Origin: Bdellovibrionia bacterium
GTDB lineage: Bacteria > Bdellovibrionota > Bdellovibrionia > Bdellovibrionales > JAGQZY01
DNA length: 64,000 bases
Direction of reading: 5' to 3'
Assembly (NCBI GenBank): GCA_030427805.1
Contig: JAUICP010000003.1
Coordinates: forward strand, 62,001-126,000
Part shown: in pieces, positions 4,794 to 16,774 of the stretch
Layout of the letters: the number at the start of each line of letters is the position of its first letter
Position numbering within the stretch: the stretch's first letter is position 1
The notes under the pieces: model-generated
Database searches by the model: none
Told to the model about the DNA's origin: nothing
What the model saw: only the letters and a program-made list of their open reading frames with translations
Translations under genes and position numbers: made by a program

Positions 4794-5462
4794 TTGACAT
4801 CGCTGGTTTATTATTCTATATTCTCAAGTAATTTGAAAAATCAGACGAACTTTTTTAAAAACTTAGAGACGAACCCTGGTCGGATTAAGGGAAAGCAGGG
4901 GGCGAAATCCAGAGGACGACCTCGAATCCGTCCTCCTAAAAGCTTTGGGGGCTCTTATTTTAAAAACTATAACCCTAGAGAACAGCGACCTATCAATCAA
5001 AATCAGGCACTACACCTTGTTCTCAAATCGTCTCAAGCAACGGGGGTTCGCTCTTTCAAAAACAAAAAATTCGAAATAAAAATTTGGCAAATCATCAAAA
5101 AACATGCTCAAAAGAACTCTATTAAAATCTACGAGTACGCCAATGCGGGAAACCATCTGCATCTCTTAATTCGGGTTAAGAGAAGGGACTTTTATAATAA
5201 ATTTATTCGAACGATCACCGGGTTAATTGCAAGGCTTGTTAAATCCATCGAAAACGGGGCACCAATAGTGAAATCATTTTGGGACTCTCGCCCTTATTCA
5301 AGAATCGTTGGTTTTCGAGGTCGAGAATTTAAGATGGTTAAACTTTACCTCACGAGAAATACCTTCGAGGCGATCGGATTTATACCCAAAATAAAGCGTT
5401 CTAAAAAACTAAACTCGGAATGGAAAGAGTTTTGGTATCGCCTCGTCTCAGTTCCGGGCTAA
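4794..5462 (+). CDS. REP-associated / IS200-like tyrosine transposase (Y1_Tnp family)
   Basis: Encodes up to 222 residues. The HxH pair of the HUH endonuclease fold is seen at H121 and H123 (NAGNHLHLLIRV), and a candidate nucleophilic tyrosine is Y185 in the later helix (VKLYLTRNTFEAIGF). This spacing fits single-stranded DNA transposases of the IS200/RAYT type. The N-terminus (PKSFGGSYFKNYNPREQRPI) has the R/P-rich look of chromosomal single-copy members. The start is uncertain: the longest form uses TTG at 4794 with no clear ribosome binding site. No insertion sequence ends or target duplications are visible, so it is more likely a domesticated RAYT than a complete mobile element. Whether it relates to the repeat arrays around it is unknown. 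Confidence 0.8.
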   Translation: MTSLVYYSIFSSNLKNQTNFFKNLETNPGRIKGKQGAKSRGRPRIRPPKSFGGSYFKNYNPREQRPINQNQALHLVLKSSQATGVRSFKNKKFEIKIWQIIKKHAQKNSIKIYEYANAGNHLHLLIRVKRRDFYNKFIRTITGLIARLVKSIENGAPIVKSFWDSRPYSRIVGFRGREFKMVKLYLTRNTFEAIGFIPKIKRSKKLNSEWKEFWYRLVSVPG

Positions 5463-11725: not shown

Positions 11726-13279
11726 ATGATTAGTTTAGATATTCAAAGCGAAACAAAGTCCCACTACCCCGTTGAAAAGGTACTTGCGACCTATCCCAAG
11801 CAAATGGACACCCGACGGGTTCAAGTCATCCCTCGTTGCGAAATAGCTGGCATCAAAGAAATGAATGTAGAAGGTGAAAAAACTTACCTCGGTGAAGTCA
11901 GGAACTTCAAAAACAATTCGTTTCTCAACGAAAATCTGCCTAAGGACCTCTCGATCAGCTGGACAAGAATGCCAGCCCAAAGAGAGTTACCCGCCCACTA
12001 CCACCCCTGCGCAAGTCTTATTCTCGTCACTAAAGGAGAAGGTCAATCCACGGGGGACACGGTCGCTGACATTTCTACCGGCGACATAGTACACATACCA
12101 GAGTGGAACCTCCACGGCTTTAAAGGAAAAGGGCACGATGGGTTCTCAGCACTCTCGATTCAATTTCAAGAAACCGCCATATTTTCATCCGAAGATCGAC
12201 CCGAGACCACATACATTGATCGCGAGAGTATTCCTCTTGCAGAAAGGGAACTCAAAATCATTTCGCGAAACTCTCTTCTGGAACTCAATGAGATTTCGCA
12301 AAATGGCCAGAAGAAAAACCTGGGAATCGTCAAAAACTTTGCAAGCCACTCGCTCATGAAAGAAAAACTTCCCTCCTACTTTTCGGCCGCTTGGGTTCAC
12401 CTTAACCCTGGAGAAAGACTTGAAACCCACGTTCACGATACCGACAGTATGATTATCTTGACCGAAGGTTTCGGCAGCCTCCAAGGTGATCTTAATCAGC
12501 CACTGCAAGAAGGTGATACGGTCTATGTTCCCGCTGGCTATTCCCACGGCTTTACTGGTGCAGGAGACAAAGGATTTTGGGCACTTTCCATTCAGTTTCA
12601 AAGTACCAGTCTCTACGAAGATTCTTTAAACCCTCAAGTTCAGTTCATCGAAGACGAAAAAATTTCTTTCGAAAACTTTCTTAAGCTCAACGAACACTAC
12701 GTACAAAAATTTTTAGAAAATCCGATATTTAAAATTAATCCCCAGGACCTTCGCGATCGGCCTGAGAAAAAGAAAAAACTCATGGATTGCTTACAAGTAA
12801 TGAGCGACTCCTTCCAAAGACTTATATTTAGTCGAATCTCTCTCTGTGACGACAAAGCCTATCGCCCTATTTATCTAGAACATTTTCTCGATGAACTTGG
12901 CCACGATACCGATTTGCAAAAAGAGCGAGGCGACGATCAACTTCTATGGGACCCCATTCTCCATGCCTCTTGCAGTTGGTTTTACAGTAAGAATTTTCTC
13001 ATCGATCACCCCGCTCGAATTGTAATGGTGCAAATGGTTCTAGAGCGAGGTGCCTTCTTCTTTTACAGTCACTACAACCAAATTTTAAAGGATGGATTAG
13101 AAAGTGATCATATCAGTGAGCACAGTGTCGCCGATGAAGGTCACGACAAATTAGGAGTTGAACTTCTCAAAGAAGAATCTCCGCGGAAGCTCTACACCTA
13201 TACAAAACTCCTTGAGCAAAGTTGGGACATGTTGGGACAATTTCTCAAAAGAACCGAGGAATTATTAAGCAAAGAATAA
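11726..13279 (+). CDS. Double-cupin protein fused to a haem-oxygenase-like (HDO-type) domain
   Basis: Encodes 517 residues with no signal peptide; AGAGGAGAAACCG precedes the ATG. Cupin 1 (about 60-150) has metal ligands H91 and H93 (LPAHYHPCAS) and H130. Cupin 2 (about 200-295) has H235 and H237 (LETHVHDTDS) and H274. The two halves are similar, so they arose by duplication. Residues about 315-515 are helical and carry the pattern of haem-oxygenase-like di-iron enzymes: YLEHFLDELGHD (E385, H386, E390, H393), an isolated E440, and HISEHSVADEGHDKLG (H462, E465, H466, D470, H473). Families with this fold include TenA/PqqC-like and di-iron oxidases that cleave or N-oxygenate small amines and fatty acids. 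The substrate here is unknown. It stands alone, with no other biosynthetic genes beside it. Confidence 0.8.
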   Translation: MISLDIQSETKSHYPVEKVLATYPKQMDTRRVQVIPRCEIAGIKEMNVEGEKTYLGEVRNFKNNSFLNENLPKDLSISWTRMPAQRELPAHYHPCASLILVTKGEGQSTGDTVADISTGDIVHIPEWNLHGFKGKGHDGFSALSIQFQETAIFSSEDRPETTYIDRESIPLAERELKIISRNSLLELNEISQNGQKKNLGIVKNFASHSLMKEKLPSYFSAAWVHLNPGERLETHVHDTDSMIILTEGFGSLQGDLNQPLQEGDTVYVPAGYSHGFTGAGDKGFWALSIQFQSTSLYEDSLNPQVQFIEDEKISFENFLKLNEHYVQKFLENPIFKINPQDLRDRPEKKKKLMDCLQVMSDSFQRLIFSRISLCDDKAYRPIYLEHFLDELGHDTDLQKERGDDQLLWDPILHASCSWFYSKNFLIDHPARIVMVQMVLERGAFFFYSHYNQILKDGLESDHISEHSVADEGHDKLGVELLKEESPRKLYTYTKLLEQSWDMLGQFLKRTEELLSKE

Positions 13280-14854: not shown

Positions 14855-15853
14855 TTACCAGTAAGGACCATCTTCAACTTGTGGGTTGATTTCAGCATTG
14901 ATAACAATTTGGTCTTGGAATGGCCACCAACGCTTCCACCAAGGCTTGCGAGGCTCTTCTTCTTTATCCTTAGCCACAGGCGGTTTGAACCAACAAAGTG
15001 GACGAACCCCACGAACATGACCATCAGCTCTTGTACACGTTCCCTCAGAGTAATCAGAGTCTGAGAGCTCGACACCTACATCCTGAGTACAAAGTGCACC
15101 TTGATAATAAGAGTCTAAACGACATTGTGTATCCGGATGGCGATCATCTGTAGAGCTCACTTGAATCGTATCAGGAGTATTATACTCAGGAGGGTTTCGG
15201 TCTCCTCGAAGCTTTTGGAACATCTTTCCTACAGAAAGGGCCGCCATGGCTCCTCGATAACAGGCCACTTGATCGTCGCGATCTTGCCACTGAAGATCAC
15301 ACTCAAACTCAACCGTTGAATCAACATCGTTTTTCGCAAACCACTCAGTATTGTCAGCGGCATCGAATAGTTTTCTAAAACACTTAAGTGTCGCATAGTA
15401 ATCGGATTGTCCTTCGTTTGACGCCCATGATGAAGGCTGCCAGGTGCTTGAAATTTTAGGAGCGCCAGCCAGGTGATGACCAAGCTCATGGCATGCCACG
15501 AGAGTGAATCCATCGCGAGTCACCTCAGGGTGACGAGCTAAACCACCATACATATTAATGATGACTTGAGTTCCTCTGCGAATGGCAGAAGCATTAACAA
15601 CTCCGTCTGACCATCTTCTATTAATAACCAATGTATCACCGTCAGCAGCGATTTCAGGGCCGTAAACGTCCTGAACGAGATCGAGAACATCATCAAACTC
15701 ATCTTGATCAAGTCCGCCGGCTGTTAGTTGAAATTCCGAGATGTAAAGATCGTTTTCAGGCAAGAATCCCTGACAAAGCTCGTGATTGTGATCCGTAAAA
15801 GTGAAGGCTACAAGTGCGCTAAGCAATCCTAGCAACGCAAACAATTTCTTCAT
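14855..15853 (-). CDS. Secreted HExxH zinc metalloprotease, cysteine-rich
   Basis: Encodes 332 residues with a signal peptide (MKKLFALLGLLSALVAFTF). The active site is VACHELGHHLAG, with zinc ligands H122 and H126 and catalytic E123. The downstream NEGQSDYYA (E147, D151) is the likely third ligand. Many cysteines in the second half suggest a disulphide-stabilised exported enzyme. The tail is basic and tryptophan-rich (KPWWKRWWPF), which may bind membrane. The start has AGAGGGGA just upstream. It faces the aminopeptidase across a shared terminator. The exact peptidase family is not certain. Confidence 0.87.
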   Translation of the reverse strand: MKKLFALLGLLSALVAFTFTDHNHELCQGFLPENDLYISEFQLTAGGLDQDEFDDVLDLVQDVYGPEIAADGDTLVINRRWSDGVVNASAIRRGTQVIINMYGGLARHPEVTRDGFTLVACHELGHHLAGAPKISSTWQPSSWASNEGQSDYYATLKCFRKLFDAADNTEWFAKNDVDSTVEFECDLQWQDRDDQVACYRGAMAALSVGKMFQKLRGDRNPPEYNTPDTIQVSSTDDRHPDTQCRLDSYYQGALCTQDVGVELSDSDYSEGTCTRADGHVRGVRPLCWFKPPVAKDKEEEPRKPWWKRWWPFQDQIVINAEINPQVEDGPYW

Positions 15854-16177
15854 AATATCCCCTCTGAATAAATTTGTCCCCAGAACTATCCTAATAGAAA
15901 CCTGACAAATGCGAATCAGCCAGCCGGACCCAGGCCCGGGAAATGCTTAAAATTTGGGCCTAAGTCCCTCTATAACAAGACGTGTTGATAGCTTTATTTA
16001 GTGTTTACTGTAATTTATTAACTCAGGATGACTCTGCTTATTAGGCCTAAAGCCGCCACTGTAGCCTCTTTCCAGGAACGAAATTTCTTATCTCCAAAAC
16101 TCCTCTTTGCTGTTCAAATTTACTTGAACTCACCCGTTTTTAGTGGGATATCTTTCAAGAATCATAAGGAGGTTCCA

Positions 16178-16774
16178 ATGAAGTCACTTAGCCTTTCCCT
16201 ACTCGTATTACTTCTCTCTTTTCAATCCAATGCCTTTGCTTCTGGCCAAAAAATGCCTTTAAAAACTGTGGATCAGGTTGAATTGGACGCCTACCTCGGA
16301 TTGTGGAAGGAGATTTACCGAATTCCAAATTTCTTCCAGGACGAAAAAGATGGTGACCTCGATCCTTGCTTCAACACCACTGCTGAATACGCTCTTAAAG
16401 AAAACGGTAAAATATCTGTGACCAATACCTGCGATCGAAAGAACCGCGAGACGGGTGAAATCATTCGCGACTCTGGACTTGGAGAGGCAAAGATTGCTAA
16501 CACCACTACCAATGCCGAACTCAAGGTGACTTTTATTCCAATCCCATGGATTAAGTGGTTATTCACTGGAGACTATAACGTGATCGGTCTTGGTCCGAAG
16601 AATGATGAAGGCCTTTATTCGTGGGCCATGGTGGGTTCAAAAGATCGTAACTACGCTTGGATCCTCGTTCGCGAAAACAATTTACCAGAAGCAAAGATCA
16701 AAGAGCTTCTCGACCGTTTCGAGGACTTGGGTTTTGATTCAAGCCGACTCATTCCCATTCAAAACGACCTATAG
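16178..16774 (+). CDS. Blc-type bacterial lipocalin
   Basis: Encodes 198 residues from ATG 16178, which has AAGGAGG upstream and begins a signal peptide (MKSLSLSLLVLLLSFQSNAF). The lipocalin start motif is YLGLWKEIYRIPNFFQ (G-x-W). The later strands NVIGLGP, YSWAMVGSKDRNYAWILVRE and the C-terminal LLDRFEDLGFDSSRLI match the Blc family signature. Blc proteins bind lysophospholipids or fatty acids. Unlike E. coli Blc there is no lipobox cysteine after the signal peptide, so it should be a soluble periplasmic protein. A single-gene unit with its own terminator. Confidence 0.93.
   Translation: MKSLSLSLLVLLLSFQSNAFASGQKMPLKTVDQVELDAYLGLWKEIYRIPNFFQDEKDGDLDPCFNTTAEYALKENGKISVTNTCDRKNRETGEIIRDSGLGEAKIANTTTNAELKVTFIPIPWIKWLFTGDYNVIGLGPKNDEGLYSWAMVGSKDRNYAWILVRENNLPEAKIKELLDRFEDLGFDSSRLIPIQNDL

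Follow-up and report, generated by a model that had tools for sequence, protein, structure and literature searches.

A conserved bacterial protein that joins two cupins to a predicted haem-oxygenase-like di-iron oxidase domain

What might a protein built from two cupins and a helical domain of the haem-oxygenase type do, and does it do so on its own? The question is raised by an open reading frame (ORF) in the 64,000-nucleotide stretch of a Bdellovibrionia genome analysed here, to which we refer as the window. The reading-frame check of the window gives an ORF that starts with ATG and encodes 517 amino acids on the forward strand (Table 1). A chance ORF is ruled out because the gene is carried by 11 genomes of its own phylum and because its codon differences to the copy in the same genus are mostly synonymous (14 synonymous and 5 non-synonymous), a pattern as would be expected under purifying selection. 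The order of the protein is cupin-cupin-HDO (haem-oxygenase-like di-iron oxidase), as delineated by Pfam matches and by the strands and helices of AF2 models. The sequence-only reading had described a double cupin joined to an HDO-type domain, and both halves of this description are borne out, the first by the Pfam search that it had proposed, in which Cupin_2 matches the ORF twice (E 3.8e-18), and the second by the haem-oxygenase fold recovered with AF2 and Foldseek. The protein is a genuine, conserved and uncharacterised bacterial enzyme with two cupins and a predicted HDO domain. A promoter and terminator scan returned fewer matches than in shuffles and was uninformative.

The two cupin repeats align with each other over their full length at 35% identity, and each carries the HxH motif and third histidine that had been read from the sequence (H91/H93/H130 and H235/H237/H274), which places both in the three-His type of cupins. 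In the alignment, both triads are invariant among the two-cupin forms of the family and the single triad is kept by all one-cupin forms, which argues for working metal sites; each cupin likely forms a single-metal site. The single cupin of the Pseudomonas relatives is about equally similar to both repeats of the window protein (38-41%), which fits either a tandem duplication on the way to the two-cupin forms or a loss elsewhere. Among the matches listed for the full-length protein, Foldseek returned only bicupins and seed storage cupins, and for this reason a model of the HDO domain by itself was made and searched.

The C-terminal 40% of the ORF has no Pfam or NCBIfam match of its own. Predicted in isolation by AF2, with six homologues, the helical domain reached a pLDDT of 82 and a pTM of 0.81, and all 50 matches listed by Foldseek in the PDB are haem-oxygenase-fold proteins. 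The best placed are TenA, AetD, CADD/CT610 and PqqC (E about 2e-3, the best value being a modest 1.7e-3; TM up to 0.70), with 3dde and haem oxygenase itself also among the 50 listed and SznF absent from them. At the level of sequence profiles, the first, six-row alignment of the domain found no match in Pfam, NCBIfam or PDB sequences, and a ten-row profile matched only CADD/CT610 among PDB sequences, weakly (E 0.73) and with the H-x3-D-x2-H motifs aligned. The window domain has no match to PF14518 (Haem_oxygenas_2); a no-cupin Pseudomonas homologue (L035) passes the cut-off of this family (31.0 vs 28.9 bits), and a search of the same phylum with the family profile picks up, weakly, ordinary proteins of HDO size (about 220 residues), one of them a clear PF14518 protein. 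By its predicted fold and its motif, the window domain is a member of the HDO superfamily. The window's own genome also encodes a second, ordinary PF14518 protein of about 204 residues (L063, G000:C1:563270-563707).

Six residues had been named as candidate metal ligands (E390, H393, E440, H466, D470 and H473), and all six are invariant across the 17 rows of an alignment of 16 family members, which are 25-58% identical to the window HDO domain, and one ordinary HDO. Their placement in the AF2 model agrees with the helices (alpha-1 to alpha-3) from which, according to a review of HDOs (PMC13108848), the ligands come; together with the haem-oxygenase fold, this placement lends indirect support to the predicted clustering of the six residues at a metal site. 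The last three fall in the segment 461-473, within the region around residues 460-480 where model confidence for the domain is lowest, and a flexible alpha-3 has been reported for apo HDOs (PMC13108848). No further invariant carboxylate is found near the expected place in the 17-row alignment, E400 being replaced by Q, M or D in relatives, so we predict a ligand set of three histidines and three carboxylates (3H/3C).

Table 1. Features of the cupin-HDO gene, in window coordinates.
Feature	Position	Strand	Basis
Whole ORF, double cupin and HDO-like fusion protein, 517 aa	11726..13279	+	Reading frame; 11 phylum genomes; codon comparison
Cupin repeat 1, aa 33-146	11822..12163	+	Cupin_2; AF2 beta barrel; bicupin Foldseek matches; His invariant in two-cupin forms
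Repeat 1 His triad	H91 11996-11998; H93 12002-12004; H130 12113-12115	+	Alignment
Cupin repeat 2, aa 177-290	12254..12595	+	Cupin_2; AF2 beta barrel; bicupin Foldseek matches; repeat alignment
Repeat 2 His triad	H235 12428-12430; H237 12434-12436; H274 12545-12547	+	Alignment
HDO-like helical domain, aa 312-516	12659..13273	+	AF2; Foldseek PDB matches; PF14518 match of close relative
Predicted di-iron ligands E390 and H393 (E-x2-H, helix 380-401)	12893..12904	+	Invariant in 17 rows; AF2 helix
Predicted di-iron ligand E440 (helix 429-449)	13043..13045	+	Invariant; AF2 helix
Predicted di-iron ligands H466, D470 and H473 (H-x3-D-x2-H)	13121..13144	+	Invariant; weak CADD/CT610 profile alignment

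The family is sparsely distributed and comes in three architectures. In the window's phylum, 11 of 369 genomes have a strong match, which in each case is a two-cupin protein. A one-cupin form is found in five Pseudomonas genomes (P. frederiksbergensis, P. orientalis, Pseudomonas sp. R5(2019) and two further Pseudomonas) and in one Embleya, where it sits on a 5.7 Mb plasmid, and a form with no cupin is found in two Pseudomonas genomes, which indicates that this domain does not necessarily rely on a cupin. The family was not found in 397 other Pseudomonadota genomes, nor were relatives found in the viral and phage collections searched. In a tree of the HDO domain, the one-cupin and no-cupin forms cluster (84/98) separately from the two-cupin forms; the deep nodes are poorly supported, and the tree has some long branches. 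One two-cupin gene (G191, L009:679-2136, the same as L040:6971-8428) has an in-frame TGA in its second cupin where relatives have Trp; we rejected it as a different architecture and take it as a pseudogene or an assembly error.

Within the window, the gene content shows no pathway beside the gene, whose neighbours are a small secreted-type protein upstream and an M28 peptidase downstream. Further away, a secreted protein on the reverse strand (14855-15853) has a HELGH metalloprotease-like motif and no confident Pfam match; its relatives lie near a cupin-HDO gene in another genome (L041:9026-9817 and 15272-16717), possibly as weak synteny or as members of a common family. An ORF at 4794-5462 resembles, by eye, a REP-associated tyrosine (Y1) transposase.

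In relatives, the surroundings are of another kind. Five Pseudomonas genomes share, in one order, genes for an ATP-grasp ligase, the cupin-HDO protein, an ABC transporter, a protein of unknown family, a PhyH-type oxygenase and a class IV aminotransferase (L019:8363-16794, and likewise in L018, L020, L037 and L038). This six-gene operon looks like a natural-product cluster, and we found no description of it in the papers searched. Its transporter is a CydDC-like fused ABC transporter, and the protein of unknown family is without a Pfam match. In a genome from the window genome's own order (G1041, L060:2027-7091), the cupin-HDO gene comes first in a tight operon and is followed by a P450, an MFS transporter and a UDP-glycosyltransferase, and in the genome G1000 it is followed by a 2OG-Fe(II) oxygenase and a CHMI-family isomerase. 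Related LysR-type regulators are adjacent and divergent in four genomes (Pfam-checked in one), the Embleya copy adjoins a zinc dehydrogenase and a PaaZ-like protein, and the no-cupin copies (L035:9962-12476 and L036:9858-12370) lie beside a styrene-monooxygenase-like (Smoa_sbd) protein and a MarR-type regulator. In one locus (L059:1099-6179), siderophore-type IucA/IucC and lysine/ornithine N-monooxygenase genes precede the cupin-HDO gene by about 2.4 kb, with three genes between, and a secreted protein of the Spondin_N family is encoded directly 3' of the gene in two genomes (L040:8445-9083 and L061:10497-11126).

This variation between lineages suggests that one reaction type is used in several pathways, and the substrate may vary too. 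The first reading of the sequence had seen no neighbouring pathway and proposed that the enzyme acts by itself. The gene is indeed an orphan in the window, but independent action is not supported, because relatives occupy compact, pathway-like operons (in Pseudomonas and in G1041).

Given these observations, our proposal, which we hold to be about an even call, is that the protein works as a multi-site oxidase in specialised metabolism: oxidation by the HDO domain would be followed by a step at a cupin metal, by analogy with SznF. The protein would be a cytosolic metallo-oxidase of specialised, patchily distributed metabolism, whose HDO domain would hold a di-iron cofactor through E390, H393, E440, H466, D470 and H473 and, with O2, would oxidise a small and probably amino-acid-like substrate, a substrate class suggested by the ATP-grasp and aminotransferase neighbours in relatives. 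At one or both of the three-His cupins, a single metal, probably iron, would be bound, and there the product of the HDO domain would undergo a second reaction, in the way known from the cupin of SznF; a tandem duplication of a unit of roughly 145 residues would have given rise to the second cupin. SznF, in which an HDO domain and a three-His cupin work in series and histidine mutants accumulate the HDO product, counts as a precedent for such a relay, and a reversed and expanded fusion of this type probably serves multi-step oxidation toward a small specialised molecule. The single likeliest reaction class would, tentatively, be N-oxygenation or N-N chemistry. A relay over three metal sites, in which the di-iron HDO domain and two mono-metal cupins would act in turn, in three steps, on a single substrate derived from an amino acid to yield an N-oxygenated or rearranged product, we consider unlikely; if true, it would mean a new product in Bdellovibrionota and a so far undescribed natural-product pathway in Pseudomonas.

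The main rival to the two-step oxidase is that the HDO domain alone is catalytic and the cupins are structural, oligomerising, ligand-sensing or substrate-holding. We regard this as possible, if on the doubtful side: the HDO domain is also found without any cupin, the cupin parts also match AraC-type ligand-binding profiles, and a neighbouring 2OG oxygenase or P450 could provide further oxidation steps, but every cupin in the compared forms retains its three histidines, both duplicates included, and the same triad is catalytic in SznF (PMC11705231). That the cupins would instead be a catalytic dioxygenase or isomerase, as in bicupins such as quercetin dioxygenase, for a ring compound other than an amino acid, the HDO domain taking the step before or after them in catabolism or detoxification rather than in biosynthesis, seems to us quite improbable. 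The exporter, glycosyltransferase and ATP-grasp neighbours appear biosynthetic, no complete catabolic pathway is seen, and the bicupins that appear among the full-length Foldseek matches, YxaG included, are of low identity (11-15%), although the divergent LysR regulators in four genomes, the CHMI-family isomerase downstream in L059 and the PaaZ-like protein near the Embleya copy would suit such a role. Very improbable is a helical domain that is a metal-free enzyme of the TenA/PqqC type or a self-sacrificing p-aminobenzoate synthase of the CADD type rather than a substrate-oxidising HDO, since, even with all three among the best structural matches, a metal-free enzyme would not need the full 3H/3C set, which is invariant. 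The CADD mechanism uses Tyr27 and Lys152 (PMC13108848); the alignment of ten HDO-domain sequences has neither an invariant Tyr nor an invariant Lys, and a p-aminobenzoate synthase of the CADD/NePabS type was rejected.

The proposed multi-site oxidase is of wider interest as validated functions are known for only about a dozen HDOs. The family has the two kinds of catalytic module that SznF has, arranged the other way round and with a duplicated cupin, and it also comes with one cupin or with none; it constitutes a natural experiment on the cooperation of the two kinds of metal site, and the conserved six-gene operon in culturable Pseudomonas offers a route to the product.

How does the protein compare with known systems? 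The bicupins OxdC (oxalate decarboxylase), MncA and YxaG (quercetin dioxygenase) share its double-cupin scaffold and are its best full-length structural matches, but they lack an HDO domain, are 13-15% identical to it and reach a TM of about 0.35 of the query. On the HDO side, 1) the nitrile synthase AetD, UndA, BesC, HrmI and CADD have the 3H/3C pattern and the haem-oxygenase fold in common with the window domain (Foldseek TM up to 0.70 for AetD and 0.6 for CADD), yet AetD and other 3H/3C HDOs are single-domain proteins with about 15% identity and neighbours different from those of the window family, and 2) PF14518 proteins such as L056 and the PDB entry 3dde align with it in their ligand residues but are without cupins.

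The closest parallel in architecture is SznF/StzF, the N-nitrosourea-forming enzyme of streptozotocin, set apart from the other characterised HDOs by its C-terminal cupin according to a 2026 review (PMC13108848); GrbD and ChmM likewise consist of an HDO domain followed by a cupin (PMC13108848, PMC11705231, PMC10849742), and all three share with the window protein the fusion of an HDO domain with a three-His cupin. In SznF, two hydroxylations of a methylarginine by the HDO domain are followed by a rearrangement of the product at the three-His cupin, and substitution of H407, H409 or H448 leads to accumulation of the dihydroxylated intermediate (PMC11705231). The two proteins have in common the H-x3-D-x2-H motif and the spacing of the triads, in which HxH is followed after about 37-39 residues by the third histidine (H407/H409/H448 in SznF, PMC11705231; H91/H93/H130 and H235/H237/H274 here). 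They differ in domain order (HDO then one cupin in SznF, two cupins then HDO in the window protein), in the N-terminal dimerisation domain of SznF, none of which is seen in the window protein, and in the ligand set, which is 3H/4C in SznF and predicted as 3H/3C here. Searches of PDB sequences, where according to the literature SznF has entries, gave no match to it, and the window protein may resemble SznF in its working at most by analogy. The earlier statement that no characterised enzyme has this exact architecture holds within the reviews consulted, but the fusion of cupin and HDO itself has a precedent in SznF, GrbD and ChmM.
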